From Phorcus lineatus (taxonomy: Eukaryota > Mollusca > Gastropoda > Trochida > Trochidae), in NCBI GenBank assembly GCA_921293015.1, contig OV121086.1, positions 27,204,254-27,268,253 of the forward strand: a stretch of DNA of 64,000 nt, in the 5' to 3' direction. Position 1 is the first letter of the stretch. Every line of letters starts with the position of its first letter. The notes beneath the pieces were generated by a model. That model saw only the letters and a list, made by a program, of their open reading frames with translations, had not been told where the DNA came from and did no database searches. Below are positions 1 to 49,445 of this stretch, piece after piece. The translations under genes were made by a program, and so were the position numbers.

Positions 1-157
1 GACGCCATCACTGCCAAATCCATTCTGTGTCCAAACTGCTGTCAGATGACGAAAGTTCCTCGACCTCAAGAACCAGTGGATCAGTGGTGTGAGCAGTTCA
101 AGCCAAGTTTCCTCATACAAGGTCTTCTGGATTCGTTTGTGTCCCAGGAAAGTGGAG
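1..157 (+). CDS. TRIM-like E3 ubiquitin ligase copy A, first coding exon (partial)
   Basis: This is the distal end of a RING exon, open from base 1 in frame 1. It encodes the last RING cysteine pair (CPNC) and the linker ending QESG before a GT donor at 158. Comparison with copy B shows that 46 codons, including the first RING ligands, lie left of the window. The exon ends in phase 1 and joins the acceptor at 3637, giving a Glu codon across the junction. RING domains recruit E2 enzymes for ubiquitin transfer. The coding match with copy B is nearly unbroken (one visible change after the last ligand, Cys for Arg), so it looks functional, although its start cannot be seen. The open frame runs past the donor to 252, but that part reads as intron. 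Confidence 0.85.
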
Positions 158-731
158 GTAATTTTATCCTCATACACACCAACAAATATCCTACATCCCT
201 TACAGACTATCTGTCTCCTCCTTTAACTTCTTGTTATCATTTAACATCTTGAAGGACATTCTACCATGATTTTTAACATCCATTACTATAACTGCATTGC
301 CTTTATCTGCTTCGTTCAGTTTGATTATAGACGTGTTATTTAATTGGTTGATATATGGAATGTAAGTGCAGTCGTGGTGGGGATTATCTTTTTGGAGTTA
401 GTTATTGTGAGGAATAAAGATGAGATGTGAGCTAATTTGTGTGAATGGCAATAGCAATGATTAGGTGATAACAAGAATTGCTTATCATGTCATTGGTACG
501 TTGGTGGGTTCATGATAATGAGTGGAGGGGTTTGGGTGGTAGCTGTGGGTGTTTGGAAGGAGTCTAGTTTCTGTATGAAATATGTACAATTTGTATTTAT
601 ATATTATTTTTAGAATTGCCTTAAGTATACATAGGAGTTAATGTCTTTCATTACCAGTTGAGTGGCCAATATAGATATGAAAAAAATGTAATGAATATAT
701 ATTTCAATATTGTATTTATTGGATATTGTAT

Positions 732-733
<2 letters not shown>

Positions 734-802
<69 letters not shown>
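734..802. repeat. (CT)n microsatellite
   Basis: About 69 bases of uninterrupted CT dinucleotides in the copy A intron. Open frames across it on both strands (poly Ser-Leu and poly Arg-Glu) are artefacts. Copy B lacks this tract. Confidence 0.97.
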
Positions 803-805
<3 letters not shown>

Positions 806-834
806 CTCAGAATATGTTCAAGAGTGATGCAAAC

Positions 835-1070
835 GTCACAGTAAAAGTTTAAAGTAATGTTTAAGGGAGGCAAGATTTCATACAAACAATACTAGTAGTT
901 CTAAAGAGTGGTTTTCAAATTTATTGGTACTTCTAACAGGTAAGTGCAAAACATGTCCGTGTAACTTTGCAAATTACAGTGAAAATCTATGAACAGAACA
1001 GAAAATATAGATTTTATGTGCGCCCTTGCTTTGATTGTGCGGCAAAATAGGTCATTTAGATAATTCTGTG
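835..1070 (+). repeat. Intronic duplicated block, left copy
   Basis: A stretch running from the sequence around CACAGT and AAAGTTTAA to GCGGCAAAATAGGTCATTTA reappears in diverged form at 2911..3130 in the same intron. The intron of copy B carries only one version, near 21540..21740. The duplication is therefore specific to copy A or was lost from copy B. Confidence 0.7.
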
Positions 1071-1263
1071 AAAAGTGTGATCTAATGAATATAGTACGAC
1101 TGGCTATTTTTTTTTACTTCGAGAGCATACATGTAAGTCAGGAATGCAAGAATTATTTGTACATAAATTTATATATCAACATTCCTACCTTTACGATGAA
1201 TCCAATTATTTTATTTTTTCCTAAAAAAAGGATATTTGCCTTTTCTTGTCGGGTATCGAATTA

Positions 1264-2739
1264 TACTATCCAAAAAAAGAAACGCATAACCAGATTTGTT
1301 AAGAGAAATTGTCGTATTTTCAAACGCATATAAATTCAAAGGGAATGAAGTTAAAAGTGTGAATTTTTACATCAGATTTAAGGTGATATCAATTAACAAA
1401 ATTACGTAAAAACATTAGATATGGCTTTCACAATATTTCACAGACGTCCGCTTAAAGTCAGTATCTGTTGTGGCCATTTTGTGCGTTGATGACAGTTCTC
1501 ACCCGCCTCAGCATTGATTGGATTAGACGCTATATGGTTGGTTTTGGAATCGTCTGCCACTTTTGCTGCACAAAGAGTTGTAGAGTTTGTGGCTGTTGTT
1601 GACGCTGACGAAGACGTCTATCAAATTCATCCCAAAGATGCTCAATTGGGTTCAAATCGTGGTAACGAGACGGCCATTGGAACTGATTAATGTTGTTTCT
1701 GGCGAGGAAATCCCTAGTGACTCGTCCAGTATCTAGCCTGGCGTTGTCCTCCTGGAACAGTTCACGTTAGACGTCAGTAACGGGCAGGAGGTGTGGCTGC
1801 AGGATGTTGTCTCTGTAGCGTACGGGCGTCAAATTTCCCTGAACGTGGATTATATTGATGCCACCACTGTAGGACATCGCCGCTCACATCATAACGCTGC
1901 TTCCACCAAATCTGTCCACCTCAAGAACACAGAAAGGGGCAAAACATTCATTTCGACGTCAGTAAACACGGTTTCTACCATCTCCCCTCCGCAATGGGAA
2001 CCTGGATTCATCACCGAACCAAACTCGGCGCTAGTTTCGAAGATTCCAAACACCCACTATGTTACACCAACGAAGTCGATTGACACGGTGTTGACGACGT
2101 AGAGCGTTGCCAACGTAGGGTCACCTGGCTATCAATCCATGCTCCCTCAACCTGTTCCGTAAAGTCTGGCTTGAAATTCTTCTCAGTCCTGGTTTGTTGC
2201 CTGCAGTACTCTCGGCAGTAGTTGTGCGATAACGCAAATGGATGCCCCGGATGTAGCAATCTTGAGCTGGTGTTGGTCAGGAAAAACCTGGCGAAAAGTC
2301 TTGAAATGGTGCTCTTGCTAAGAATGAGACGTCTTGCCACCGAATATTGGGACTCTCCAGCTTGAAGTCTTGCGATGGTGATGTTTCTTGTTGCAGCGTC
2401 AAGACGTGGCACTATGGATTGTTTTATAATCAATCTCCAAACAAGTGGCAAATCCGGATGGGTATCCCTTTTTATAGCCACAAACTGCTTGCATTTTCCA
2501 CAAAAGTTTCACGTGCGTAATTGCACGTGTTGCGTTGAGGCGAAACGTTTTTTATTTATCCTTAAAATGTTCACCAAAGTCAACATTTCCATGCAAGATC
2601 CATTTTTGGAAAGGAAAACGAAAGCAACTTGTCAGTATCATCAATATCATTAGATTTTTGGACACTACAAATAATACAAATAAAAATATTTCGATTTCAG
2701 TTATGAAAAATCACCTATGCCTAACTTTTTGGGATAGTA
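1264..2739 (-). mobile_element. Tc1/mariner-type DNA transposon, inactive
   Basis: The ends are imperfect inverted repeats: TACTATCCAAAAAAAG on the left and, read inward on the other strand, TACTATCCCAAAAAGTTAG on the right. TA dinucleotides flank both ends (1262-1263 and 2740-2741), as expected for the TA target duplication of this superfamily. The length of about 1.48 kb fits Tc1 elements. The interior carries a degenerate transposase on the minus strand. It sits in the intron of TRIM copy A and is absent from copy B, so it probably inserted after the gene duplication, or copy B lost it. Confidence 0.88.
1438..2481 (-). pseudogene. Tc1-like DD34E transposase remnant
   Basis: Reading the minus strand from 2481 gives an N-terminal helix-turn-helix (RNITIARLQAGESQYSVARR), then, after frame breaks, a catalytic core. 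FGDESRF holds the first Asp, QEDNAR the second, and DLNPIEHLWDE the Glu, with 34 residues between the second Asp and the Glu (DD34E). The reading ends at a TGA at 1438-1440. At least one stop replaces a Trp in the core and the frame shifts several times, so no active enzyme can be made. Transposases of this family cut and paste at TA dinucleotides. The + strand open frame at 1791..2102 is only its antisense shadow. Confidence 0.88.
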
Positions 2740-2910
2740 TAAATCGATAGAAAAATACTTCAATAGTGAGAAGGAAAGACAAATCTGAAAACAATTGATA
2801 TTGTATAGTCACCTCAAAACCCACTCAATCTAGATATGTTCAAAAGTATCATACACAACAGGATATCCTCATGTTTGATGAAAAAATGTGCAAAGAAATT
2901 AATGATGAAA

Positions 2911-3130
2911 ACGCCACAGTCAAAGTTTAAGTTATGTTTAGTAAAGACAAGATCTGACACAAACAGTACTTCTAAAGAGTAGTTTCGAAATGTAACAGTG
3001 GTTCTAACAGTGGTAATTGTGGAAAATGTGCGTATATATTTGTAAATTTCAGTATAGATTCATTAAAAGAAACGAGAGATTTTATTTGCGAATTATCATC
3101 GTGCCGCAAGGCAGGTCATTTATGTAAGGG
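2911..3130 (+). repeat. Intronic duplicated block, right copy
   Basis: Diverged second copy of the block at 835..1070. Shared landmarks are TTCTAAAGAGTNGTTT and GCGGCAAxxNAGGTCATTTA. The Tc1-like element lies between the two copies, with unrelated sequence on each side of it. Confidence 0.65.
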
Positions 3131-3636
3131 TGACAAGGGTGTTCAGATGAAAATATGAGACGAACTAATAAGACACAGAAGTTCGAATTCTTAACACGTG
3201 TAGAGCCGTTCTCCGATTATCAATGAAAACAATAAACATAATAATTTTGGCATTTAAGAGAATAAGATGCAAATGGGAGGCGATTTTTACTTATAAAATG
3301 AGTTTTGCTTTCACTTAAGCCACATAAAAAATCATGAAACATATGCTTTGTCATTTCAACGGTGTACTTATATTTCAAATAAAAAAATATTACTAGTAAG
3401 TTGATTAGTACTGTCACTGTTTTAAAGTCTTGTTAAAAAGTCCACAGCAAGTGTGGTAGGAAGATTTATGAATACCATCCTCAAACTAAAAGGTTTTATT
3501 AAGAAATAAAATGTATTATCTAAGTCATCAAATTTTATTGATTTAAAGATACGAGTCCATATGACTCTTTTCTAACATCGTAAATATTATTAATCACTAT
3601 ATTAAGTCAAACAAGAGTGATTTTTCCCTCTTTCAG

Positions 3637-5282
3637 AGTCCATCCGAAACTTTTGCGTTACATGTCAACAAATCGGGAAGACAACATATGCCAAATCAGT
3701 ATGTGAAGATTGCAATATCATGTTCTGTGAAGTTTGTGCTAAAATGCACAATGGCATTCCTCTAACCTCAGATCATGTGATTACAACTCCTGGAGCTGGA
3801 TCAACTCAACAACTAAAGAAACGCAAAGTTATGTGCAAGGAGCATAACTGTTTGGTTGAGTTTTGTTGCAGAGATTGTCAAAAAGCTGTTTGCCACAAAT
3901 GCTGTATCGTCTACCACAGAAAATGTAACTCTGTTGTCTCCCTCGACTCAATGATTCCTGAAATGAAACAAGTACTTCAGCAGAACTATGATGATATAGA
4001 GTTGTGTCGACAACAAACAGGAAACACTTTGAAGAGAAAGAGATCAGAAGTGGAGGAAATCACAAAACACAAATATTCTCTGCAGTCAGAGATCAGAAGA
4101 GTCAGTCAGCAGGCCGTGGATCTGATCAGAAGAAAGGAAAAGAAACTCCTGGATGAACTGGATACGCTCACTGAAAAGCAGACTGGAGAACTGAGAGGTC
4201 AGATAAAATCTGGAGAAATTGACCTGCAAACATATCAACAGTACACAGAGTTCATCAAACAAGTCCTGCAATCAAACAGTCCCATGGATCTGTATGATAT
4301 GTACACGCTGTGTCAGTCAGGGGGGATAACTGCAGAAGTACAAAGGCATGATAGGCTAGTAGGCAAAATAAAGAAAGTTGAATTTGAATTACAGTTCGAT
4401 CGGAATGTAATTGACAAGAGTTTACAACTTGGTTATATGAAAATTGTAGAATATTCCAATATCCTGGACACATCTATGCTTCTGTCAACAGTGAGTACTA
4501 AATTGAAAGATGATAAAAAAGAACCAGATCCCTGTGACATTGAAGTCTTGATTATTGGTGGTACAGAAACACTTGTTATCATTGACAGTAACAATGCAAG
4601 TGTCAAGTCTTGCTACAGAAAAAGTGGTAAACCTCACTGCTCTTACATAAAACGTAATGAAGAGCCCATTTCATTAACAAAGATTAGCCAGGACAGAGTA
4701 GCTGTATCGCACCACTCACACAACAGTATTGCAATAATCAAGCTGACTCCTGACCCAGTCCCTATTACCACAATCAAAACAAAGAAAGAGTCCACATGTC
4801 TCACGGCTCTCAGTGACACGACTCTGGCTGCAGGTTGTAGAGATCCTTCCAATATCGACGTCCTGGATCTTTCAGGGAGAGTCCTGAGATCAGTGATCAC
4901 ACCCAGCACTGGTCAGCAGCTGATACAGAGACCATGGTACATGTGTACAACACGTCAGGGTCACATTGTAGTGGCAGATGGCGGGTCAGGTTATGTCTAC
5001 TGTGTAACACAACAGGGGGAGGTTCTCTACACATACAAGGTAACAGGTTCATGTTTGACAGGTGGTGTAGCAACTACAGACACTGGTTCTGTTATCGTGG
5101 CTGATTACTTTGGCAACAGAATCGTCCAGCTGACTGAGAGAGGGGAGTATGTGAAAGATATTCTGAATGAACAAGATGGAATTGTTAGTCCACAGGGTAT
5201 ATGTGTACACGGGAACAAACTGTTTCTTACAGAACAGGACAGAGAACATGTCAAGATATTTCAACTGTCAGTCTGCGATTGA
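3637..5282 (+). CDS. TRIM-like E3 ubiquitin ligase copy A, second exon (B-boxes, coiled coil, beta-propeller)
   Basis: A single large terminal exon entered in phase 1 after CTCTTTCAG and ending in TGA at 5280-5282, with 547 complete codons. The order is B-box 1 (FCVTCQQ to the SDH histidine), B-box 2 (CKEH ... CCRDC ... CHKC ... YHRKC), a long charged coiled coil from about IPEMKQVLQQ to FIKQVLQSN, and a C-terminal region of repeated beta-strand units (VLIIGG, VAVSHHSHNS, VVADGGSG, VIVADYFGN, LFLTEQD) typical of an NHL-like six-bladed propeller. Such proteins are cytoplasmic RING E3 ligases that dimerise through the coiled coil and bind substrate or RNA with the propeller. In copy A the residue after the last B-box 2 Cys is Asn where copy B has His. 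Which residue binds zinc there is uncertain. A downstream Met at 3720 is not the start, because the frame is open back to the splice site. Confidence 0.9.
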
Positions 5283-5642
5283 AAGTGTTGTTGATCGTGA
5301 GATCAAATTCGGACAGACAGTCCAGTCATAGTGAGATGAATATCTTCATGAGTATGCTTCCTTGCTTATGATAACCTTGCAGCGGTAACTGTCAAAGATA
5401 TTTTCAAAATTAAAAAGTCATGATAAGAATCGTTTTTTTAGGTCAGTGGTTACTAAATCGACGACGATCTTAAATATCAAGCCCATTTAACTTAAACCAA
5501 CATCAATTACCTCTCCAGGATATCAAAACTTATATTGGGCATTGTCAACCACCAGCAATTAAAATAAAAGATATATTTGCTGGACTTACCATTTTGATTA
5601 TAAAACATTGTCTAGATATGGAATCATGTAACCAAGAAATGA
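5283..5642 (+). other. 3' flank of TRIM copy A with a polyadenylation signal
   Basis: AATAAA at 5563-5568, about 280 bases after the stop, is the best 3'-end signal. The segment just after the stop, with CAGACAGTCCAGTCATAG at about 5315-5332, is the uninterrupted counterpart of the site where the LTR element sits behind copy B. Confidence 0.5.
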
Positions 5643-6205
5643 ACATACATACTTACATACATGTACATACATACATACATACATACATAAAAATACTTAT
5701 ATAGCGCTAAAACCATAAAGCTGCCCTGAAGCGCTGTAATGAACTTAGGAAAAAGGCAGGGAGTCAATCAATTGCAATATTAAAATAGTGTGTTTGTTTT
5801 AAGTCCGGAAGTTAATCTGTGTCTTAAGGTTTTGAGGAAAGTAATTCCTTAGAGAAGGGCCGGCGACTTGAAATGCGCGATCACCAAATGTTTGAGTTCT
5901 GGATGAAGGTACTTGAAGGAGTTTACTATCGGAAGATCTAAGGCATCGTACGGTTCATAGATCTGAATGGGAGCTTGTAGATATTCAGGAACTTGTTCAT
6001 TTAAACACAAGGAACAAGAGTTTGAACTGTATTCGATATTTAAAGGGAAGCCAATGTATTTTCTACAGTACAGGTGAGATGTGGTCATGTCGCTTGGTTC
6101 CAGACACTAAACGAGGGGCAGAGTTCTGGACTCTCTGCAGGGACTTTATGCAGTGGGATGGTAGACCATAAAGAAGACTATTACAGTATTCCATGCTCGA
6201 TAACA
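5643..6205 (-). mobile_element. Non-LTR retrotransposon 3' fragment (L2/CR1-like) with CATA-repeat tail
   Basis: On the minus strand the segment from about 6205 reads SMEYCNSLLYGLP, LQRVQNSAPRLVSGT and HDHISPVL, then CLNEQVPEYL. These are the standard C-terminal thumb motifs of CR1/L2-type reverse transcriptases. They are followed by a non-coding end, AGCGCTATATAAGTA, and a TATG/CATA microsatellite (5643..5690) that forms the 3' tail. Frames are broken and the element is 5' truncated. The equivalent flank of copy B lacks it, so it arrived after the duplication or was lost there. Confidence 0.82.
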
Positions 6206-6874
6206 CATATGCATGGATTAATGAAAACGCAAAATATAGGAATATAACTTATTTCAAATCATCGATTGCACATATGCTCTAAGGATTATGTTTAAAGTAA
6301 TCATTTTTTTTCTTTTGTTTGACATGTTGATACAAGATATCTGCCACAATGTACAAAAGAAATAGTCACATGCTTGATTGTAAAAATAGTAGTTAGGTAG
6401 TTAGATGATAAAATCATTACGTAAAGAATTTGTGACAGGACGAAAACATGTTGAGTAATTACCTTAATTACATTTAAAAAAATAAGTGAATATGTAAATG
6501 TCATTCAAAATTTGAAAGCCATTTTGAACAATAACCTTTGTCTCATGAGTCGTCTAGATCATCCGCCAGTAGGAAATAGTTAAATATATAGTCCTATAAG
6601 CACCATTAAGCCTTATATTTTTCAAACAGTCTTTAGTCCCTCGTATCTCTGGTATTCAAAATTGTCAGTAATTATATTTTCAAATCATTGGTGTAATAAA
6701 AAGATGTTTCACATTATGACTTTCACTGTTTTTGACAGACTCGCCAAAAACTACCGATGAAGTTGGAAAACCTAAAAGTACATGTATATATGCTGATCTT
6801 ACAGATTTTGACAGACTTTTTCTTTGAAACCCAAAACAACACATGTAGATTGACCGTGATCCTCTTAATAGGTC
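6206..6874. other. Duplicated 3' flank of TRIM copy A, no gene
   Basis: AT-rich sequence similar to 27550..28215 behind copy B; shared landmarks include AAGGATTATGTTTAA and CATGATACAAGATAT-like blocks. No coding signal was seen. Confidence 0.55.
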
Positions 6875-7012
6875 TTAAAGGTGCAGTAGCACGTTTTACA
6901 TGATATAAAACTGATCTCACAAAAACGAAAATGAACATTTTCCAATTGCAAGACACCGATTTTGTTAATAAAAAGAAGCAGTTTTCAAACGAACGTACCA
7001 TGATTGGTCAAA
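6875..7012 (+). repeat. MITE-like family member, 5' part
   Basis: Starts CTTAAAGGTGCAGTAGCACG and continues with the family interior (GATCTCACAAAAACGAAAAT, then AACGAACGTACC). The 3' half seen in other copies is missing. The same truncated unit occurs behind copy B at 28216..28352, so it was present before the duplication. Confidence 0.65.
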
Positions 7013-8504
7013 GACGTTCCGAACGTTTTTCAGTGCGCATCTTTTCGCGCATCCGTAAAAGTGCCGCTAACAAACTCAAGTTGTGTAAACGTTGTAGAAA
7101 AATAACACTGAGGCTCTATCGATGTCCTTAAATAAATGAAATTTTAAAAATGATGAGTTGTCTATTATTCCATCTATGCCCTTTTGGTAATAGATATTAA
7201 AAATCAAATGCATATGCATTGGTCATAATCGGTAGAGATGTTCTGAAACAAATGTTGGTAATAATTAGATTGCGGCTTTCCAAAATGTACTCCAATTATT
7301 ATTTTGCAACCGAGAAAATGTCACCGATGACATTTATATGTGTTTACATTCGGCATAAAACCGATTATTGATGAAATAATACAAGTTATCCGTTGCAATC
7401 ACTTTGTTGAACATTGTTGAAATGACGTCATTGACACACGAAAATATGTTCGTGGTCTGGTCGGTTCATGAAGTAAATCAAAATGATATGATTATATATT
7501 CATCCTGGAGAATGAAAAAATAAAATTCGAAACTCTTATTTGATATCATCTCAAGAGTATGACTTAATTATGAACGTAAGCACCGAATGCTTCCCGAACC
7601 TTCACGAAACGGGCCGACTTGATTGAGGTCTATTCCTCGTCGTAATAGCTCCGCAAACTTGCGGCGCTTGCACGCGGTGTACTTTTATCGCGCAAGTAAT
7701 AGACCTTTTGAGAGGAAGTTTTGAGGTTAAATCTTTATATTTTGTGACCAACCTTATTATCCCACTATCTGGAACATACATCTATGGCCACTCAAAGTTT
7801 GAAAAACTTAAATCATTTACAAATACATGTAGAAAACATTTGTCATATTGAAAAGATGAGTTTTTTAAATTTATTGTGAATACTAAGACTTTGTTCACAC
7901 GTGATGTGACCAAAGGCAATGAATGTCATTTGACAATTCAAACATTTCATGACAATGACCTTCGAATGTCATGAAATACTTTGAAACGGGATAAACTGTG
8001 TTGTTACATGAATTATCTTTCAAGGTAAATGAAGAGTTACCTCCCCTTATGAGTTTGTTCATAAGTAATTTTAACTTCAGCTTAAAATCTCTCGGAAGAT
8101 AGGTCCGTGACAAATTCAAATTATTTCTTTTCAATATGTTTTATTCTATCTAAATCGCATTTTAATTATTTTTCATTTATTTTTATTACTGAACGCGTCT
8201 TTTGAAGCTATTTTTATAGCCATCATCATCGAAATTGTATCTTTAATATTTGCATATAAGTTACAAAAGACAAAAAAAGAAGTACCAGACATCAATTTTC
8301 TATTACATTATCATCTCATTAATCGGAAAAAAAGTAAACTGAACGCTAAATGTTTTTATTTTTTGTTTTAAAGATTAAATAAGCAAAATTGGACATTTCC
8401 CCATTTTATTAAACAAACCCGTCAAAAATCATCATTTCTCTGAAAAGGAAGGTCCGTGACATGACTTTTTTATTTTTGAATATTGAAGAATACATATTCA
8501 GCTT
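7013..8504. other. Intergenic, no gene seen
   Basis: Only short open frames without splice or codon support. It holds a CRE-like octamer TGACGTCA near 7425, a perfect 11-base inverted repeat (7944..7954 and 7967..7977) and one GAGTTACCTCCCC motif at 8034. Confidence 0.5.
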
Positions 8505-8783
8505 TCACCATGCAAATTTACAGCAATTTTTCATTTATTTTGTTTATTGGTACGAACCTCTCTAAGGTATGGGAATCGATTTCCCGACCTCCATAGATTA
8601 TAAGGTGTCAACACAAAAATAGCCGCCAATGATTTTTCCTTGATACTTGATTATTTCTTCTTCGACTACGGATGATCGGGTTGAGTAATTAGATGTTTGA
8701 TCCTCGGAAGATTCTTGCTTAAAGTTATTGTGGAAATTCTCAAACAAAAATAAATCTGTTCAAAGTTTGCTACTGCCCTTTTG
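8505..8783 (+). repeat. MITE-like family member, 3' part
   Basis: Contains the conserved interior (CACAAAAATAGCCGCCAAT, GACTACGGATGATCGGGTTG, AATTAGATGTTTGATCCTC) and the right end GTTTGCTACTGCCCTTTTGA. The left end is not clear. Confidence 0.6.
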
Positions 8784-10092
<1,309 letters not shown>

Positions 10093-19836: not shown

Positions 19837-20131
19837 ATGGACGCTCTGACGAAATTAAACGAACATTTTCTGTCCTGTACCATCTGCACAGAGACCTTCA
19901 AAGACCCTTGTACTCTAGGCTGCTACCATACCTTCTGTAGGGAATGTCTGACCAAGTTTACAACAACTCGAAGAGACGCCATCACTGCCAAGTCCATCCT
20001 GTGTCCAAACTGCCGTCAGATGACCAAAGTTCCTCGACCTCAAGAACCAGTGGATCAGTGGTGTGAACAGTTTAAGCCGAGTTTCCTCATACAAGGACTT
20101 CTGGATTCATTTGTGTCTCAGGAAAGTGAAG
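19837..20131 (+). CDS. TRIM-like E3 ubiquitin ligase copy B, first coding exon (RING)
   Basis: Starts at ATG 19837, immediately after an AG that looks like a splice acceptor, so the 5' UTR is probably spliced. Ninety-eight codons plus one base are followed by a GT donor at 20132. The RING is a complete C3HC4 type: Cys14 and Cys17, Cys29 and His31, Cys34 and Cys37, Cys56 and Cys59. RING domains of this type bind ubiquitin-charged E2 enzymes. The remaining linker ends PSFLIQGLLDSFVSQESEG. The exon agrees almost fully with the partial exon of copy A. The frame stays open to 20310, but bases after 20131 read as intron and run into a repeat. Confidence 0.92.
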
Positions 20132-20214
20132 GTGATTTCTTCCTAATACACACCCATCACTATCATACATACCTCGTAGATTACCTGTCTCCTAATAACT
20201 TCTTTTATCATTTA

Positions 20215-20530
20215 CCACCACTTGACTCATTACCATATCCTGGTGTGGTGGTTTGCGTGCTTCAGAGACCTCAAGAGCTATGCCGGGCGGAGCGTAAATG
20301 CTCCTGGTAGGGGCACCCAAGCTGGACAGGTCGACGGGTAGAAGCCAGAGCAAATTTGAGTCGTTCTTATACCTGCTATCTCTCGATATTCCTTTCTTTC
20401 CGTCTTTTCCCTCATCCTTTCGATCCCTTTTCCCGATCTGTCCACTCTCGTTTGGATGCTTGTCATCCTCCACGTGTTTATTGACTGAAATATTGTTCAA
20501 AACACTATAAACCCCAACTCACTCTCTCAC
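20215..20530 (+). mobile_element. Short retroelement family S2, plus orientation
   Basis: About 316 bp from CCACCACTTGACT through GTGGTGGTTTGCGTGCTTCA and GCACCCAAGCTGGACAGGTC to the 3' end TGAAATATTGTTCAAAAC, ACCCCAACTCACTCTC. The 14-bp target duplication TCTTTTATCANTTA lies at 20201..20214 and 20531..20544 with one mismatch. The copy A intron has the uninterrupted site. No clear pol III boxes, so this could be a SINE or a LINE-derived deletion product. Confidence 0.82.
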
Positions 20531-20729
20531 TCTTTTATCAATTAACATTATAACAAAATTGCATCATCCATTACTATAACTGCGTGGCCTGTATCTACTT
20601 CTTTGACTATGACTAATGATTTGTTATTTAATTGCTGGCTATTGGATGTAAGTGCGGTTATATAAGTGATAAAAGTATGATGCGTGCTTATTTGTGTATT
20701 TAAAGGATGGCATTATGTCTTATGATTGA

Positions 20730-21055
20730 GTTGAGTTGAGTTGAGTTGGTTGGGGTTTAACGTGCTTTGAACATTATTTCAGTTATTAAACACGTGGATG
20801 ACAAGCATCCAAAGGAGAGTGGATTTATAAGGGAGAAAGGGATCGACAGGATGAGGGAAAAGACGGAAAGAAAGGCATAGTGAGAGATAGACAACAGGTT
20901 TAAGAACGACTCAAATTTGGTCTGGCTTCTACCCTTCGACCGCTCCAGCTTGGGTGTCCCTACCAGGAGCATTATACGCTCCGGCTGGCTTAGCTCTCGG
21001 GGTCACTGAAGCACGCAAACCACCACACCACGATAAGGTATTTAGTCAAGTGGTG
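20730..21055 (-). mobile_element. Short retroelement family S2, minus orientation
   Basis: Second copy of the S2 unit, inverted relative to the first and about 200 bp away. The 3' end carries repeated CAACT units as a tail (20730..20750). A perfect 13-bp target duplication GTCTTATGATTGA lies at 20717..20729 and 21056..21068. Confidence 0.88.
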
Positions 21056-22010
21056 GTCTTATGATTGAATATCTTATGATTGAATGTATATAGCAATGAG
21101 ATATTTATGCTTATCATGTCATTGGTAAGTTGGGTGGTTCATGATAATGGGAGAAGGGGTTGGGGTAGTAGCTGTGAGTGTTTGGAAGGAGTGTTAGTCT
21201 AGTTTCTGTATGTAACATGTTCAGTCTTGTATCTAAACGTATTGTTGTTTTTAGTATTGTTGGTTTGGGTTAGCAATATAATTTTAATTTTAATTTTATG
21301 TATTATGATATTGTTTTTGGTGACACAATATCAATCTCCATATACCAGCTTTCATTGTGGGATGCAAAGGCAACGTGCATCTATAGAAAACAAACTTAAC
21401 AGCCAGAACAAAAGAGAAATGTGAAACAATTGATAGTAAGGTCAACTCAAAACAAACTCAATCCAGATATGTTCCAGAGTATAGGACAGAATTACATATT
21501 CTCATGTGTGATGAAAAACTGCAACATAATTAATAATGTTGATTAAACAAAGGCAAGATTTGACACAAACAGTACTCCGAAAGAGTAGTTTCCAAATGTA
21601 ACAGTACTACTATCGGAATTAATTGTGGAACATGTCCGTATATTTTTGTAAATTGCAGTATAAATCTATAAACAGAACCGAGGATTTAATGTGCACTTTA
21701 AATTTGATTGTGCGGCAAAGAAGGTCATTAATGTCATTTTATGGCAACGTATTCAGATGAATATATGGGACGACCAGAGCGCCTCCGAGACAGAATTGTG
21801 TTCATTAAAATGTAATTTAAACAGTTTACTGCTACAATATTTGAAGTTAGTATATTAATATTTTTTAATACAATCCTCGAAAACAAAAGGTTTTATATAG
21901 AAACAAATTATATATTACATAATCATGAAATCGTATTGATTTAAAGATATGAATTCACATGAATCTTTTCTAACATTGTTAGTTTTATAAATCTTTGTAT
22001 TGAGCCAAAC

Positions 22011-23260
22011 CCCCGTGGGGTTCTCGGGTCAGATTGGGGCCCCAGCATCTCCAAGGCGGTCGTACAAGGCGGTCTGTTTGCCGTGGACTGGGACCTGTGT
22101 CGTTGGTTTTTGAGGAAGGCATAGCTAAATAGCTTACACTGACCAATATCCCAACTTTGGCCACGACTTCATCTAGACAGGAGGCCAGATTGGCAACGAC
22201 GGGCCAATCGTCTGGTCATGCCAAGCACTTGGTTTCTTACTTCTTTCCTATCCCTCTCCTTTTACATATCATCCTTGCTTAGCTGAACCAATTTCAAACC
22301 CTTTTCTACACCTCTCTTCTCAACTTTTTCTCACATCTTTCCTATCCTTCTCTTTTCATTCTACTTCTTTCCTTGTACAGACATTTTTACTTTGCTTCAA
22401 GATAGGGATGGCTAATTGGTCAATCTTGTTATGAATTGGCAAATCATAGTGGGAGCATATCACCCTTGTATCCTCGATGCTGCTAGCTGGAGTCACGCTG
22501 GCATGTAGCACTGCTCTTGTTGGAGCTCCGTGGGTGGTTGGGGACCCTGGGTGATGAATCCATATTACCTTATTATGTGTCGAAAAGGAAAACAGAAGCG
22601 AACATGTTCAACGGATGATAGTCCTGGAGTAACTGCATCAACAGCATCAACATCAAAAGTAACAGCATCAACATCCAAAGGGATTTCTAACTCTCAATCA
22701 TGAACTAGCTGGCCAAGGTTCTTGTTAATGTTCATAACATCAGTAGATCAAGAACCACTACGAATGAATCCCTTTGACACCGCCAAGACCATTCTAGGAC
22801 TCGCTGGTGATGTCCAGAATGAAGGGAAAATAAGGAATGGGTACCTTCTTGTTGACTAAACAACAATCACTCCCTCTAAAAAAACTAGTCAATACACCTG
22901 TTAAAGTTTCTCCACATTCACACTTAAAAGCCGAGATAGGGATTGTTGTCTCAGAAGACTCTCCATCGTGACTTCAATCTATTAAAAATTGCAAAAGTGT
23001 CACTCAATTATCAGGAATGTCATTCATGATGCATTTCTCCAAAGACAGGGACTTTTTCATCAATTCGGTGACCACCGAATTTTAGATAATCTAAAGGCAC
23101 TCAATCTTTTTGATAAGTACTACTAGAATTTAAAATTTTCTCAACTTTTAACCAAATTGGTAAAACTTTGCTAACTGTTTCTATCCCATTAAATTTTCTC
23201 GCCGCTAATGGCTAAAATATTGCCCATGCGGTGTTAATCAATAACTCACTCACTTATTAG
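22011..23260 (+). mobile_element. Internally deleted non-LTR retrotransposon (I/Nimb-like ORF1 remnant)
   Basis: The 1.25-kb insertion is bounded by GCCAAAC at 22004..22010 and 23261..23267, while copy A has the uninterrupted site just before its acceptor. The left end is GC-rich (CCCCGTGGGGTTCTCGGG). The middle has broken ORF1-like frames: a start at 22575 reading MCRKGKQKRTCSTDDSPG, then NPFDTAKTILGLAGDVQNEG and KIRNGYLLVD from 22763. That pattern resembles the nucleic-acid-binding ORF1 of I-group elements. No reverse transcriptase was found. The right end, GGCTAAAATATTGCCCATGC then GGTGTTAATCAATAACTCAC, is shared in part with SINE families here. It ends only 40 bp before the copy B exon 2. 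Confidence 0.68.
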
Positions 23261-23300
23261 GCCAAACAAGTGTGATAATTTATATTATTTCCTCTTTCAG

Positions 23301-24949
23301 AGTCTATCAAAAACTTTTGCGACACCTGTCAACAAATTGGAAAGACAACACAGGCCAGATCAGTATGTGAAGATTGCGACATCATGATATGTGAAGATTG
23401 TGCTAAAATGCATCTAGGCATCCCTGTAACTTCAGATCACATGATTTCACGCCTTGGAGCTGGATCAACTCCACAACTCAAGATACGCAAAGTTACGTGT
23501 AAGAAGCACAACTGTTTAGTTGAGTTTTGTTGCAGAGATTGTCAGAAAGGTGTTTGCCACAAATGCTGTACTGTATACCATAGGAAATGTCACCCTGTTG
23601 TCACCATCGACTCAATGATTCCTGAAATGAAACAAGTACTGCAGCAGAACTATAATGATATAGAGTTGCATCTACAACAAACAAGAAATACTTTGAAGAG
23701 AAGAAGATCAGAAGTGGAGGAAATCACAAAACACAAATCTTCTCTGCAGTCAGAGATCAGAAGAGTCAGCCAGCAGGCCGTCGATCTGATCAGAAGAAAG
23801 GAGAAGAAACTCCTGGATGAACTGGATACGCTCACTGAGAAACAGACTGGAGAAGTGAGAGGTCAGATAAAATCTGGGGAAATTGACCTGCAAACATATG
23901 AGCAGCATACAGAGTTCATCAAAAAAATCCTGCAATCAAACAGTCCCATGGATCTATATGAAATGTACATGCTGTGTCAGTCAGGGGAGATAACTGCAGA
24001 AGTAAAAAGGCACGATAAGCAAGTAGGGAAATTAAAGAAAGTTGAATTTGAGATTCAGTTCGATGGGAGTGAAATTGACAACAGTTTACAACTTGGTCAT
24101 TTGAAAATTATAGAGGACGGTTCAAATATCCATGACACATGTAAACCTCTGTCAACAGTCAGTTGTAAATTGAAAGATGATAAAAAAGAACCAGATCACT
24201 GTGACATTGAAGTCTTGCTTATTGGTGGTAAAGAAACACTTGTTATCACAGACTATAGCAATTCAAGTGTCAAGTCTTGCTACAGAAAAAATGGTAAACC
24301 TCACTGCTCTTCCATAAAACTTATTGAAGAGCCCTTTTCATTAACAAAGATTAGCCAGAACAGAGTAGCTGTATCACATTACTCACACAACAGTATAGAA
24401 CTAATCAAGCTGACTCCTGACCCAGTTCGTATAAACACAATCAAAACAAGGAAGAAGTACAAATGTCTGACCGCTCTCAGTGACACGACTCTGGCTGCAG
24501 GTTGTAAACTTCCTCCAAGTATTGACGTCCTGGATCAGTCAGGGAGAGTCCTGAGATCTGTGATCACACCAAGCACTGGTCAGCAGCTGATACAGAAACC
24601 ACTGTACATGTGTACAACACGTGAGGGTCACATTGTAGTGGTAGATGGAGGGTCAGGTTCTCTCTCCTGTGTAACACAGCAGGGGGAGGTTCTCTACACA
24701 TACAAGTTGACAGGAGATGGATGTTGTTCATCTGGTGGTGTAACAACTACAGACACTGGTTCTGTTATCGTGGTTGATGGCTACAAGATCGTCCAGCTGA
24801 CTGAGAGAGGGGATTATGTGAGAGATCTGCTGACTGATCATAATGGGATTTGTACTCCACGGGGAATACGTGTACACGGGAGCAAACTGTATGTAACAGA
24901 AGATGACAATGAACATGTCAAGATATTTCGATTATCAGTCTGCGATTGA
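23301..24949 (+). CDS. TRIM-like E3 ubiquitin ligase copy B, second exon (B-boxes, coiled coil, beta-propeller)
   Basis: Entered in phase 1 and ending in TGA at 24947-24949; with exon 1 it gives about 647 residues. B-box 1 uses Cys105, Cys108, Cys121, Cys124, Cys129, Cys132, His136 and His145. B-box 2 runs from Cys165 and His168 through Cys176, Cys179, Cys184, Cys187 and His192 to Cys195 or His196. A charged coiled coil covers roughly residues 204 to 315. The C-terminal third is a propeller of repeated strands (VLLIGGKETLVI, VAVSHYSHNS, HIVVVDGGSG, GSVIVVDGYK, LYVTEDDNEH). The domain order matches TRIM2/3/71-type ligases in outline, with two B-boxes and no visible filamin domain. Compared with copy A the coiled coil is very similar and the segment just after it more diverged; small in-frame length changes occur in propeller loops. 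It is intact and probably functional. Confidence 0.92.
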
Positions 24950-25002
24950 AAGTGTCAAAAGTCCCGTTGATCCTGAGATCATATTCAGGCAGACAGTCAA
25001 GT

Positions 25003-25552
25003 TAACGCAGCTTGAAATACAATACATATGTTTCTCCACTGAAAGTGGCAAGCCGGTTATAAAAGATGACAAACAAGAAGACGTTGTGTTTTTCTTCTGT
25101 ATTTTCTGCGGGAGGTTTTCACCAGAACTTTTACAATAATGGCGTCCACAGGCGAGAGAAGTCGGGGATTGTGTCACGCCGTAGCTGCGACTCCGAACCT
25201 GTCTGCCTGGTTTACGCTATGGACGAGCCTTTATAGAATATGGACAATAGGGTCATTTAACATCAAAACTACACACCAGATGTCAGTTTGAAACTGTTGC
25301 AATATGTCAAGTCCGGAGAACAGCGGCCGTTCAATTACTGCATCGGGCTCTGATTAGCGTGGCGAGGGGATGCTTTGATCCCTGCCGACGTGCTCTGATT
25401 AGCGTGGTGAGGGGATGCTTTGATCCCTGCCGACATAAGCCACTTCACTGGGAGCGTGGCAAGGGGATGGTTTGAACCCTGCCGACTTGAGACACTTCAC
25501 TGAGTATTTATCATGAAACAGAAAATTATATATAAACAGTTACGCTATGACA
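25003..25552 (-). repeat. LTR (3' LTR in element orientation)
   Basis: 550 bp, apparently identical to 26779..27328. Read on the minus strand it starts TGTCATAGCGTAACTG and ends GCTGCGTTA rather than the usual CA. A TATA-rich stretch (TTTATATATAA) lies near its minus-strand start. Confidence 0.93.
25347..25486 (+). repeat. Three hairpin-prone repeats inside the LTR
   Basis: Three units of AGCGTGGNNAGGGGATGNTT followed by GANCCCTGCCGAC; the first two are spaced 45 bp apart. Each can fold on itself through GGGAT/ATCCC-type arms. The same array is present in the other LTR at +1776. Confidence 0.85.
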
Positions 25553-25567
25553 AATTCCTCCGCCCCC
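25553..25567 (-). other. Polypurine tract of the LTR element
   Basis: GGGGGCGGAGGAATT on the minus strand directly precedes the TG of the downstream LTR, as expected for the plus-strand primer of reverse transcription. This fixes the orientation of the element. Confidence 0.75.
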
Positions 25568-25733
25568 GGTGAGACTCGTCCTCGAGTCTCCTAATCGGGT
25601 TTGCGCTATGCCGTCGATTATGTTGAAGATGTGTCGAGTCCAGCACAAGTTGGGGGTATTACATCAGGAATCTGCCAGCGGGTTGATGGACATAGCTTGT
25701 GGTCAACATGAGAAGATTTATGACTGTCATGCA

Positions 25734-26585
25734 TTATCTCCAATGGTAATTGTGGTGGTGAAAATTTGAAGAATTCTGATATTGTTGGCATTTAAATTCT
25801 AAACTTGTTACATATAAATTGAGTCTTGATATTTCCTGATTCTGCCGTAGGAAAGCATCTTTTTGCACCAAATTTTCTGCGAGAAGATCTTGGATTTGTG
25901 TTTGTAAAACGTTTATTTCAGTTTCTTTGTCTTCAATATTTGCCATATTTTCAATATGTAATGCTTCATTCTCACGCATTAATTCTTGGTTCTCCTCCTC
26001 TAGCAAAGAGACTTTGTCTGTTAACCTACTTATGGCATCTAACAGCGGACCGGTTGTGCTAACACAATCGAAAAATGATCTAATTCCTATGTTCGAAAAG
26101 GGTAATTGTCTAGCCAAATATTTTCTAACATGGAAGTCTAATTTTCGAAATGAATCTCTTTCGTTTCTTTTTGAAGATTTAGTATTGCGCTTTGGAGAAG
26201 ATTTTGTTTCTAGTTTCTGATTTTGGCTTCGATTTTGTTTTTGATTTTGATTTTCGACTTTAAGTGCATTTACGGCAGAAGCATGATGGCCAGAAGAGGG
26301 TGTCTTACTTGTAATTGAACTGCGCCCTACGGTAGGGTAATTTCTAGGTTTTGAAGGTGAAAAATACAAAGGGGCATCAAAACAACAAACAGTCAAATGA
26401 CCAACCTGACCACACAAGAAGCAGTTTTTGAAATTAGCATGACAGTCAACTTCCTGATGAGAAGACCACTTACCACATCGCCGACAGCGGTGATCCTGGT
26501 GTAGATCATTGTGTTGGTCTTGCCACTGACGTTGACGGCTTGCAGTCTGTCTCATCCTCCAGTGAGATGGGAAGAAGGCTGCCAT
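25734..26585 (-). CDS. Gag-like protein of the LTR element (zinc knuckles plus coiled coil)
   Basis: 283 codons starting at ATG 26585, chosen because an in-frame TGA lies three codons upstream. The N-terminus has two zinc-binding motifs: Cys34-x2-Cys37-x5-His43-x4-Cys48, and a classical CCHC knuckle Cys55-x2-Cys58-x4-His63-x4-Cys68. A basic, Gln/Asn/Lys-rich linker follows (about residues 105 to 140). The C-terminal part is a heptad-like coiled coil around residues 190 to 270 (SLLEEENQELMRENEALH). CCHC knuckles bind nucleic acid in retroelement Gag proteins. No capsid-like domain was recognised, and the knuckles sit at the front rather than the back. A further open stretch upstream of the ATG (LSGIPVPGGVPPAVRKGRG) ends at the TGA and may be a leader peptide. 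Intact, hence probably young. Confidence 0.72.
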   Translation of the reverse strand: MAAFFPSHWRMRQTASRQRQWQDQHNDLHQDHRCRRCGKWSSHQEVDCHANFKNCFLCGQVGHLTVCCFDAPLYFSPSKPRNYPTVGRSSITSKTPSSGHHASAVNALKVENQNQKQNRSQNQKLETKSSPKRNTKSSKRNERDSFRKLDFHVRKYLARQLPFSNIGIRSFFDCVSTTGPLLDAISRLTDKVSLLEEENQELMRENEALHIENMANIEDKETEINVLQTQIQDLLAENLVQKDAFLRQNQEISRLNLYVTSLEFKCQQYQNSSNFHHHNYHWR

Positions 26586-26760
26586 GTCTGCTCATCTGTG
26601 TTGGTCGGGAAGATCCTTGACTCTGCCGGAGGTAGAAGTTTCTTCTCTGGGGGTGATGAAACAGAATGTAGTTTCTCCAAGAAGTCCTCGTCCTTTTCTC
26701 ACAGCAGGGGGAACTCCACCAGGTACCGGAATACCACTTAACTTTAAGAAAAGCTAAGTA

Positions 26761-26776
26761 CCTCTGTTCAACACCA
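26761..26776 (-). other. Candidate primer-binding site of the LTR element
   Basis: TGGTGTTGAACAGAGG on the minus strand, two bases inside the upstream LTR, begins with the TGG that pairs with a tRNA CCA end. The tRNA was not identified. Confidence 0.5.
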
Positions 26777-26778
26777 AT

Positions 26779-27328
26779 TAACGCAGCTTGAAATACAATA
26801 CATATGTTTCTCCACTGAAAGTGGCAAGCCGGTTATAAAAGATGACAAACAAGAAGACGTTGTGTTTTTCTTCTGTATTTTCTGCGGGAGGTTTTCACCA
26901 GAACTTTTACAATAATGGCGTCCACAGGCGAGAGAAGTCGGGGATTGTGTCACGCCGTAGCTGCGACTCCGAACCTGTCTGCCTGGTTTACGCTATGGAC
27001 GAGCCTTTATAGAATATGGACAATAGGGTCATTTAACATCAAAACTACACACCAGATGTCAGTTTGAAACTGTTGCAATATGTCAAGTCCGGAGAACAGC
27101 GGCCGTTCAATTACTGCATCGGGCTCTGATTAGCGTGGCGAGGGGATGCTTTGATCCCTGCCGACGTGCTCTGATTAGCGTGGTGAGGGGATGCTTTGAT
27201 CCCTGCCGACATAAGCCACTTCACTGGGAGCGTGGCAAGGGGATGGTTTGAACCCTGCCGACTTGAGACACTTCACTGAGTATTTATCATGAAACAGAAA
27301 ATTATATATAAACAGTTACGCTATGACA
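26779..27328 (-). repeat. LTR (5' LTR in element orientation)
   Basis: 550 bp, no difference from 25003..25552 seen by eye. It is followed by AAGT and then the resumed 3' flank of TRIM copy B (CATAGTGAGATGAAGATC). Confidence 0.93.
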
Positions 27329-27332
27329 AAGT

Positions 27333-28215
27333 CATAGTGAGATGAAGATCTACTTTCCTTTGACAATCGTGTAGCGGTTAGAGTACAAAATATTATTCTT
27401 TTAAAATGAAAACATCATAAAGAATCATTTGTTATTTTGGGTCTTTATAATTTTTGCTAGACTAAACAATTTGATTTAAAAAACTGTGTTAGAAATGGTA
27501 TAATATAATCAAGAAATGATGGAAAGATTTAGTAAGATTGATATAAATTTTAAATCAGCGTTTGCATTGTAAGGATTATGTTTAATTTAATCATTTCTTT
27601 TCCTTTTGTACATGTTTATACAAGATATGTGTCACAATTGTACAATAGAAGTAGTCACATGTTTGGACATATTGACTTTAGAAATGGTAGTTAGGTAATT
27701 AGATGAAACAATCGTTATATAAATAGTATGTGGCAGGACGAAAACATTTTGGGTATTTACCAGAATTACAGTTCCAAAAATATTTGAATATATAAATTTC
27801 ATTCAAAATTTGTACATTCTGAATAACAGTCTTTTCCAATGAATTGTTTCAATGAAAATAAGCAGAGTCGTCTATATCCTCCGCCAGTAGGAAAAAATTT
27901 AATATATAGACTTATGAAAACCATTAAGCCCTATTTTCAACCACTATTTTTAGTCATTCATATTCCAAATTGTTAGTTATTATATATATTAGTGTAATAA
28001 TACTATAATTGTTTCACATTCTGACTTTCATTTCTTTTCAATAGAAACGCCAAAAATATCCCATGAAAATTGAAAACCCTAATGGCACAAGTACACATTA
28101 AGATAAATCTTACAGATTTTGAGTTTTGTTTTGGAAACGAAATGAAAAGTTTATCTTTGAAAACCCAAAACATCACATCTACACACGTAGATTCATATTG
28201 ATCCCCTTACTAGGT
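27333..28215. other. Duplicated 3' flank of TRIM copy B, no gene
   Basis: Resumes the paralogous flank and matches 5327..5430 and 6250..6874 behind copy A, without the LINE fragment found there. No clear AATAAA was seen near its start, so the 3'-end signal of copy B is uncertain. Confidence 0.55.
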
Positions 28216-28352
28216 CTTAAAGGTGCATTAGAACGTTTCATCTATGAAACAATGTGATTCTAGCGAAAACGAAAATGAATGTTTCAAATTGCAATTTAAT
28301 GATTTTTGATAAAAATAAGCACTTTTAAAACCAACGTACCATGATCGGTTAA
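28216..28352 (+). repeat. MITE-like family member, 5' part (paralogue of 6875..7012)
   Basis: Begins CTTAAAGGTGCATTAGAACG and ends near ACCATGATCGGTTAAGA, after which the similarity between the two TRIM loci stops. Confidence 0.62.
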
Positions 28353-48359: not shown

Positions 48360-48810
48360 TACAACAAGTATGCACACAGTACAATAACACCCACCAATGG
48401 CAAACTTAAACACACTCATAGCACAGTGAAACACATTTACACACAGTAAAACATACTTAAAGCACAGTGAAACACATTTACACACAGTAAAACATACCCA
48501 AAGCACAGTGATACACATTTACACACAGTAAAACATACTTAAAGCACAGTGAACACATTTACACACAGTAAAACATACCCAAAGCACAGTGAAACATATT
48601 TACACACAGTAAAACATACTCAAAGCACAGTGAAACATATTTACACACAGTAAAACATACTCAAAGCACAGTGAAACATATTTACACACAGTAAAACATA
48701 CTTAAAGCACAGTCATACACATTTACACACAGTAAAACATACTCAAAGCACAGTGAAACACATTTACACACAGTAAAACATACTCAAAGCACAGCGAAAC
48801 ACACTTAGAC
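48360..48810 (+). repeat. 41-bp minisatellite with dimeric unit
   Basis: About nine or ten units. Each joins two related halves, CACAGTGAAACACATTTACA and CACAGTAAAACATACTTAAAG-like. Variation is mostly at a few fixed positions (TT/CC/TC before AAAG, ACA/ATA). Confidence 0.93.
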
Positions 48811-49445
48811 AGTTAAATATACACATAGCAAAGTGAAACACACTTTGACACAGTACAAAACACTCATAGTAAATTTACACACTTAGACACGGTAAAACAC
48901 ACTCATAGTAAAGTGAAACACACTTACCCACAGAAAAATATATTCATAGCAAAGTGAAACATACGTAGACACAGTACATTATACTCGTAGCAACGTGAAA
49001 CACACTTAGACGTCATACTCGTAGCAAAGTGATCCACGCTATTGACATGGCACATGTAAACAACCTCAAAGCAAACTGAAGCAATCACTGGCACAATGAA
49101 ACACCTTAGCACAGACACAATCACAGTAAAGTTTAACACACTCAAAATAAAGTTTAACACACTTAGACACAGTAAAACACACTCATAGTAAAGTTAATCA
49201 CACTTATAGTAAAATATACACACAGCAAAGTGAAATACACTTAATAACAGTAAAATATATTCATAGCAAAGTGAAACACACTTAGACACATTAAAATAAA
49301 CTCATAGCAACGTGAAACACACTAAGTGTCTAAAGTCTAAAGACGTCATACTCCTAGCAAAGTGAAACGCACTATTGACATAGCACATGTAAACAACCTC
49401 AAAGCAAAATGAAACAATAAAACACTTTAGCAAAGACACACTCGT
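48811..49445 (+). repeat. Degenerate extension of the minisatellite
   Basis: Decayed CACAGTAAAACACACTCATAG and AGCAAAGTGAAACACACTTA units. A longer block (GACGTCATACTC to CAACCTCAAAGCAAA) occurs twice, near 49010 and 49340, suggesting a higher-order period. Confidence 0.8.

Follow-up and report, generated by a model that had tools for sequence, protein, structure and literature searches.

A short pol-less LTR retrotransposon family of Phorcus lineatus that encodes a zinc-knuckle and helical protein and probably relies on a gypsy helper

We analyzed a 64,000-nucleotide stretch of the Phorcus lineatus genome (GCA_921293015.1, contig OV121086.1, positions 27,204,254 to 27,268,253 of the forward strand; hereafter the window, part of contig C11). 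On the minus strand, positions 25003–27328 of the window hold an LTR retrotransposon whose two LTRs, of 550 bp each, enclose an internal region of 1226 bp (Table 1). Aligning the LTRs gave 0 differences over 553 bp, three shared edge bases being counted in, which bears out the identity over 550 bp claimed in an original prediction made from this sequence. In the minus-strand reading, the LTRs of the window copy begin and end with TGTCATAG...GCGTTA, not TG...CA. No pol was found within the 2.3 kb of the element, again as predicted. The element was classed as an LTR retrotransposon on its direct-orientation LTR pair with a target duplication, its polypurine tract and its tRNA-complementary primer site, the last of which rests on an 18/18 match in 2 of 17 copies, the window copy matching at 12/18. 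It is not a TRIM, because its internal region codes for a 283-aa ORF whereas the interior of a TRIM is very short and non-coding. A search of positions 24900–27450 against Rfam returned no match up to E = 5, and ARAGORN gave no useful result on the window.

Table 1. Features of the short element in the window, with the signature shared with its candidate helper
Feature	Position in the window	Strand	Basis
Target-site duplication AAGT, left copy	24999–25002	.	sequence and empty site
3' LTR, 550 bp, with three copies of a ~46-bp repeat inside	25003–25552	-	identical to 26779–27328
Polypurine tract CCGGGGGCGGAGGAATT	25553–25569	-	sequence
Perfect inverted repeat GAGACTCG-AGGA-CGAGTCTC, adjoining the polypurine tract	25571–25590	-	read by eye
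Sole long internal ORF, 283 aa	25734–26585	-	ORF scan and open family copies
Basic motif and long helix (probably coiled coil), residues 140–271	25773–26168	-	single-sequence model; similarity to L063
Two CCHC-type zinc knuckles, residues 34–68	26382–26486	-	sequence; sub-cut-off Pfam zf-CCHC
Primer-binding site TGGTGTTGAACAGAGGTA	26759–26776	-	position behind the 5' LTR, 2-nt spacer; tRNA-Ala match 12/18
5' LTR, 550 bp	26779–27328	-	identical to 25003–25552
Target-site duplication AAGT, right copy	27329–27332	.	sequence and empty site
Helper-type signature, TRTC...TGTTA ends with TGTTAAATTGGTGGAGAATC			agreement of helper and short element in ends and leader

The predicted intact target duplication was found as AAGT on both sides, and an uninterrupted insertion site, ...AGACAGTCCAGTCATAGTGAG..., lies in a ~19.67-kb paralogous duplicate within the same window. 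This empty site differs from the joined flanks of the element by one substitution, at the target. Since the duplicate retains the empty site, the insertion was probably later than the paralogous duplication. Because its LTRs do not differ, the element looks recently inserted; gene conversion could equally yield such identity, and no rate was applied. The description of the element as very young draws on this LTR identity. The empty site comes from a diverged segmental duplication (positions 1–7011 and 19975–28352, ~70–90% identical, period ~19.67 kb), each copy of which holds an open frame of ~520–560 residues. The neighbors of the element may be B-box/NHL-like genes; the neighboring gene gave nothing above cut-off in Pfam. 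Elsewhere in the window, positions 48360–49439 are an array of ~41-bp tandem repeats.

Next, we searched the genome (958 Mb, 74 contigs) for relatives. The LTR search gave 44 matches, and 40 of 109 candidates were scored, hence the counts of copies are lower bounds. Two LTRs were present in at least ~20 of the loci cut out, some of them damaged, and solo LTRs were also found. Where aligned over their length, the middles of two-LTR copies were 92–99% identical to that of the window copy. The further copies that the prediction had called for thus make a multicopy family, with 15 loci in which the ORF is open. Neither of the two outcomes that it had named against itself was seen: the element is not a single pol-deleted copy of a related full-length element, and other copies share its structure. 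Between the two LTRs of a copy (11 copies compared) there were 0 mismatches in the window copy, L009, L010, L020 and L016 (the last with a truncated 5' LTR and 164 gap columns), 1 in L015 and L017, 2 in L018 and L028, 7 in L014 and 11 in L011. Gaps are the main difference among LTR variants; the short-element LTR reads TGTCATAG...GTGTTA, with GCGTTA in the window copy. Where the outer ends could be read, 13 of 16 two-LTR copies were flanked by a 4-bp duplication (all except L010, L016 and L040), as were 7 of the 9 solo LTRs inspected (all except L022 and L026); left out of this count were L034 (none shown), L055, L056 and an array at L030. The commonest insertion target was ATAT. The polypurine tract was unchanged in 9 of the 11 copies displayed, L028 having one substitution and L011 a deletion, and the adjoining inverted repeat was altered in L010 and L011. 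Decayed remnants with 70–85% DNA identity (L064–L066) suggest that the family is old. At L030 (positions 1001–6418 of the locus; C11, 50.326–50.331 Mb), short-element LTRs and middles form a tandem array, part of which is repeated with identical LTR-search scores.

The primer site was compared with the tRNA genes of the genome by means of a search pattern that combined a tRNA-Ala with the primer site. It gave 76 matches, with 75 falling in a single C9 array (34.67–34.71 Mb), and the reversed control gave 0. The matches are tRNA-Ala(AGC) genes, most ending in GATACCCGGATTCTCCA; the array consists of ~75 such genes in tandem, mostly 295 bp apart. The complement of the tRNA-Ala(AGC) 3' end plus CCA is TGGTGGAGAATCCGGGTA. 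Primer sites were scored in 17 copies (21 rows, from which three were dropped as second loci of one copy and L044 as a false site): the match to tRNA-Ala was 18/18 in two (L017 and L048), 17 in one, 16 in one, 14 in one hybrid, 12 in 11 (the window copy among them) and 11 in one. In the window copy the 12 matching positions are scattered. Over at least the first ~16 positions the tRNA type has six differences from the resident allele. The last four bases, GGTA, are common to the tRNA type and the window-type site, and fewer than 18 positions may therefore have been copied from the tRNA. Judged from the sequences, two alleles and a hybrid at this site are what tRNA-primed replication would be expected to leave, and the alleles in sister copies would record which sites are tRNA-derived and which template-derived. 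The 12/18 allele may be primed either by the same tRNA with mismatches or by another tRNA. The alleles and the hybrid fall exactly on the primer site, with flanking bases unchanged in most copies, which supports the minus orientation given in the prediction. The minus reading also provides the polypurine tract, matches to tRNA-Ala and a helper-like LTR end. We rejected a plus orientation, suggested by a copy (L020) whose pol opposes its LTRs, as the plus reading has no primer site or polypurine tract.

A candidate helper was found on C2 (L036), a Ty3/gypsy element with gag (PF03732) and a pol that comprises reverse transcriptase, RNase H, integrase and chromodomain; two of its frames match Baculo_F (baculovirus-F-like env). 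Its 5' part, used as a query, had 42 matches, with 40 of 167 candidates scored; the survey covered some of the gypsy families of the genome. The helper LTR reads TATCCCC...GATGTTA and was flanked by 4-bp duplications (ATTC and GTTT) in the two copies whose ends were examined. The LTR is followed by AAT-TGGTGGAGAATC, and the primer site behind this AAT spacer, TGGTGGAGAATCGATTCC, agrees with tRNA-Ala over 12 nt. In the short element, the LTR is followed by AT or AAT (AAT in 5 of 17 copies) and then, in L017 and L048, by the full tRNA-Ala complement. Helper and short element thus have in common the LTR ends TRTC...TGTTA, a 4-bp duplication, the spacer and a tRNA-Ala primer site. Their LTR bodies showed no significant similarity, and the short element, which also lacks pol, falls outside the helper family in LTR body and pol. 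The prediction had looked to a full-length partner sharing the LTR; the gypsy candidate shares the LTR ends and primer region with unlike LTR bodies.

Judged from coordinates, helper LTRs are ~1.5 kb long, or ~0.45 kb in a shorter form. The long LTR (L070, L071 and L036) carries a 40-bp sequence twice, the first followed by AG|GTGAGT and the second preceded by the pyrimidine-rich TTTATTTTCTAG; the shorter form lacks the stretch between the repeats, and either intron loss via spliced RNA or recombination between the 40-bp repeats could have produced it. At the L036 locus (positions 634–9900, together with L016; C2, 11.289–11.300 Mb), the helper is flanked by two inverted, identical short-element LTRs, with inner flanks AATT/AATT and outer flanks CAGC/CAGC. 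This arrangement fits neither plain insertion nor plain inversion, and misassembly is possible. We do not claim it as a second chimera: a helper copy lies 8 bp from one short element, between inverted short-element LTRs.

One copy, L020 on C39, combines the two elements. Its two LTRs are of the short family and do not differ from one another; it is flanked by a 4-bp duplication (GCTT) and retains 273 bp of the short-element middle, on the polypurine side, at 99.6%. The rest of its middle is ~6.2 kb of a helper relative in antisense, with 81% identity to L036 across 5 kb. In this piece gag is partly missing; a piece of a helper LTR lies at one end and, as read by eye, ~40 bp of such an LTR at the opposite end. 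At one junction lies AAATTGAGTC, a microhomology found in both parents. Such a replacement, with microhomology at a junction, suggests that the template was switched between nucleic acids packaged together and that the product integrated by means of short-family ends; a DNA rearrangement after insertion is also possible. L020 is not a full-length master of the short element, since its gag-pol is antisense and derives from a family with its own LTRs; among the loci found, it is also the only short-LTR relative that bears gag.

A protein search of the genome with the ORF product gave 32 matches, of which 15 loci were open end to end and the others partial, broken or distant, two of the distant ones being C2:495104 and C12:626112. 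Four of the open loci (L045, L046, L047 and L049) reach 324–326 aa with a different end, and nine of the 15 have a frame that stays open for 56 codons further upstream, a stretch without ATG. As predicted, two zinc motifs lie near the N-terminus with a helix behind them. By eye, knuckle 1 is C-X2-C-X5-H-X4-C (residues 34–48) and knuckle 2 is C-X2-C-X4-H-X4-C (residues 55–68). Pfam zf-CCHC scored 12.1 bits on the product, below its cut-off of 20.8; nothing in Pfam exceeded cut-off, and no gag family (matrix or capsid) appeared even below it. In a single-sequence AlphaFold2 model, residues 140–160 and 165–271 (~107 residues) are helices. Mean pLDDT was ≥95 in blocks from ~191 to 260 and mostly <50 over the first ~165 residues; as the model shows disorder elsewhere, the long helix is its sole trustworthy part. 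The helix in residues 140–271 is probably a coiled coil, as modeled, and this half also bears the basic motif RD..RK.DFH.RKYLARQLPF. Foldseek found no fold match to the model in the PDB (best E = 2.8), the best PDB sequence match, a Gag nucleocapsid at E = 0.41, was not useful, and phage tblastn gave no useful result. By its sequence, the product is not a recognizable Gag; it appears to be a nucleocapsid-like piece followed by a different helical domain. The suggestion of a gag-only element thus found no backing in the profile search, and with neither matrix nor capsid detected nothing is demonstrably reversed in the domain order, as had been proposed.

The two halves have different relatives. 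The knuckle region can be aligned to the C-terminal end of the helper Gag, an upstream P-HW included; the score against the helper nucleocapsid was reached by 22 of 5000 shuffles that kept the zinc ligands and by 0 of 5000 full shuffles, a weak similarity confined to the knuckle region. The second half matches L063 (C19:9647880–9648614), an open frame without knuckles, at 29% identity over 161 alignment columns, with the basic motif nearly unchanged. Searching back with L063 returned 29 matches, of which one was L063 itself, 18 lay in the short-element family and 10 were short pieces of its own terminal ~75-bp repeat. The second-half domain therefore occurs once outside the family at the search threshold. 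No short-element LTRs lay within 1.5 kb on each side of L063, and Pfam gave nothing above cut-off on it. The ~75-bp tandem repeat (positions 1940–3417 of the locus) starts within the 3' end of the open frame and continues to the end of the locus. From these sequences, the domain may have been either captured from the host or donated to it.

Collectively, the LTR ends, the 4-bp duplications, the primer region match and the chimera support helper dependence, and we consider it quite probable that the short element depends on a gypsy family of the L036 type, whose proteins would do the work. Several points count against it: 11 of 17 copies (the window copy and ten others) match tRNA-Ala at only 12/18, the LTR bodies are unlike, and the helper piece in L020 is antisense. 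The helper might instead be another gypsy family, the primer-region agreement then reflecting a shared primer tRNA only and L020 an unrelated rearrangement. Besides the last two of these points, this explanation can draw on many families sharing primer sites (as outlined in PMC10886601) and on the partial survey of gypsy families. We nevertheless think it unlikely, given that the unusual TGTTA LTR end, the AAT spacer and the primer site coincide, rather than the site alone, and that L020 lacks the short element's middle and the complete helper LTRs that a plain nested insertion would leave.

What the ORF contributes is a separate question. In an equally helper-dependent element it could be a passenger, a captured gene piece that has stayed open by chance and plays no part in mobility. 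The selection signal is indeed weak: among the variants in the 15 copies, 111 change an amino acid and 49 are silent (p = 0.064 for a neutral expectation of 0.75, not significant). Over all alignable codons, singleton variants were neutral (55/74 amino-acid), and variants shared between copies changed the amino acid less often than expected (64/97; p = 0.03, uncorrected), a pattern that would weakly fit a protein used in active lineages whose copies decay after landing. L028 and L020 have young LTRs (2 and 0 mismatches) and lack an intact ORF, hence a copy may not need its own protein in cis, provided that the ORF losses preceded insertion. The relative of the second half outside the family also suits a passenger. 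On the other side, 15 loci are open end to end, whereas for the more diverged of them the chance of the frame staying open under random substitution is 0.03 to 0.2 (the tests are not independent), and the knuckle segment has 6 silent against 4 amino-acid variants; we therefore regard a passenger as doubtful. A diverged or pared-down Gag that assembles its own particle and needs only pol in trans, as in a TR-GAG or semi-autonomous model, would account for the two knuckles, the weak similarity to the helper Gag C-terminus and the PDB match to a Gag nucleocapsid. This we consider very improbable, as Pfam yields no capsid or matrix family, the model contains helix and disorder only (weak evidence from a single-sequence model) and no PDB fold match fell under E = 2.8. 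On balance, we lean towards a helper-dependent element with its own RNA-binding, oligomerizing protein.

The short element resembles several known systems in part. TR-GAG elements of plants are short LTR elements with one ORF that has a recognizable Gag domain and no pol. The short element is likewise short, multicopy and pol-less with one ORF, but Pfam found no Gag (capsid) domain in the 283-aa product, and we therefore rule out that it is a TR-GAG. By analogy, and as far as the published description goes, a better and indeed the nearest precedent is the set of non-autonomous RLG_Sabrina variants of wheat (PMC9744471): multicopy, gypsy-type and pol-less, with gag-protease replaced by unrelated segments for short proteins and with partner families identified. 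The wheat variants, as described there, are 6.6–8.3 kb long with thousands of copies, whereas the element here is animal, 2.3 kb long and present in tens of copies; here too a coding segment seems to stand in the place of gag, but only the protein here, on that description, keeps nucleocapsid-like knuckles. Helenus elements, which are animal TRIMs, are summarized as having 4-bp duplications and a tRNA primer and as being mobilized by gypsy elements with a common primer region and unlike LTRs (PMC10886601), the same kind of link as here; the Helenus LTR holds a tRNA-like sequence, by that account, whereas Rfam found none in the short element, which also differs in its 283-aa ORF. The biv-TRIM of bivalves, reported with a 77–80 bp internal domain without ORF and 202–218 bp repeats (PMC6934838), is likewise small and non-autonomous, and its LTRs too occur in solo and tandem forms. 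BARE2 of barley, with a disrupted gag and its other genes intact, relies on a partner's protein (as summarized in PMC9744471); the short element would share this dependence, but it lacks pol and keeps one non-Gag ORF. Titles and abstract openings of the open-access literature yielded no LTR element of an animal that lacks pol and carries a knuckle and coiled-coil ORF, which does not prove absence in print.

If the element is helper-dependent, the odds that its protein serves as an adaptor are about even. The most likely role of the ORF product would be to bind its own RNA and bundle or tether it for entry into helper particles, building no capsid itself. A transcript would be initiated in the LTR, and the knuckle-coil protein translated from it would bind this RNA and oligomerize. 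The element RNA would then enter helper particles, where tRNA-Ala, as the primer-site sequences suggest, would prime reverse transcription by the helper enzyme. Integration would follow with a 4-bp stagger, as the 4-bp duplications show. More tentatively, the ORF may be an in-element fusion of a gypsy Gag nucleocapsid piece with an oligomerizing domain, taken from or later given to the single-copy gene L063, that acts as a non-Gag packaging adaptor and gathers element RNA into the particles of a gypsy helper whose LTR is unrelated.

In wheat, LTR elements that lack pol and code for other proteins in place of gag were already known. The family described here would add a compact non-plant case: its primer tRNA has a name, its genome also holds a candidate helper and a chimera of helper and short element, and its protein has a single-copy relative. 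It also raises a testable question, namely what a parasite gains from keeping one protein when its helper could supply the rest.
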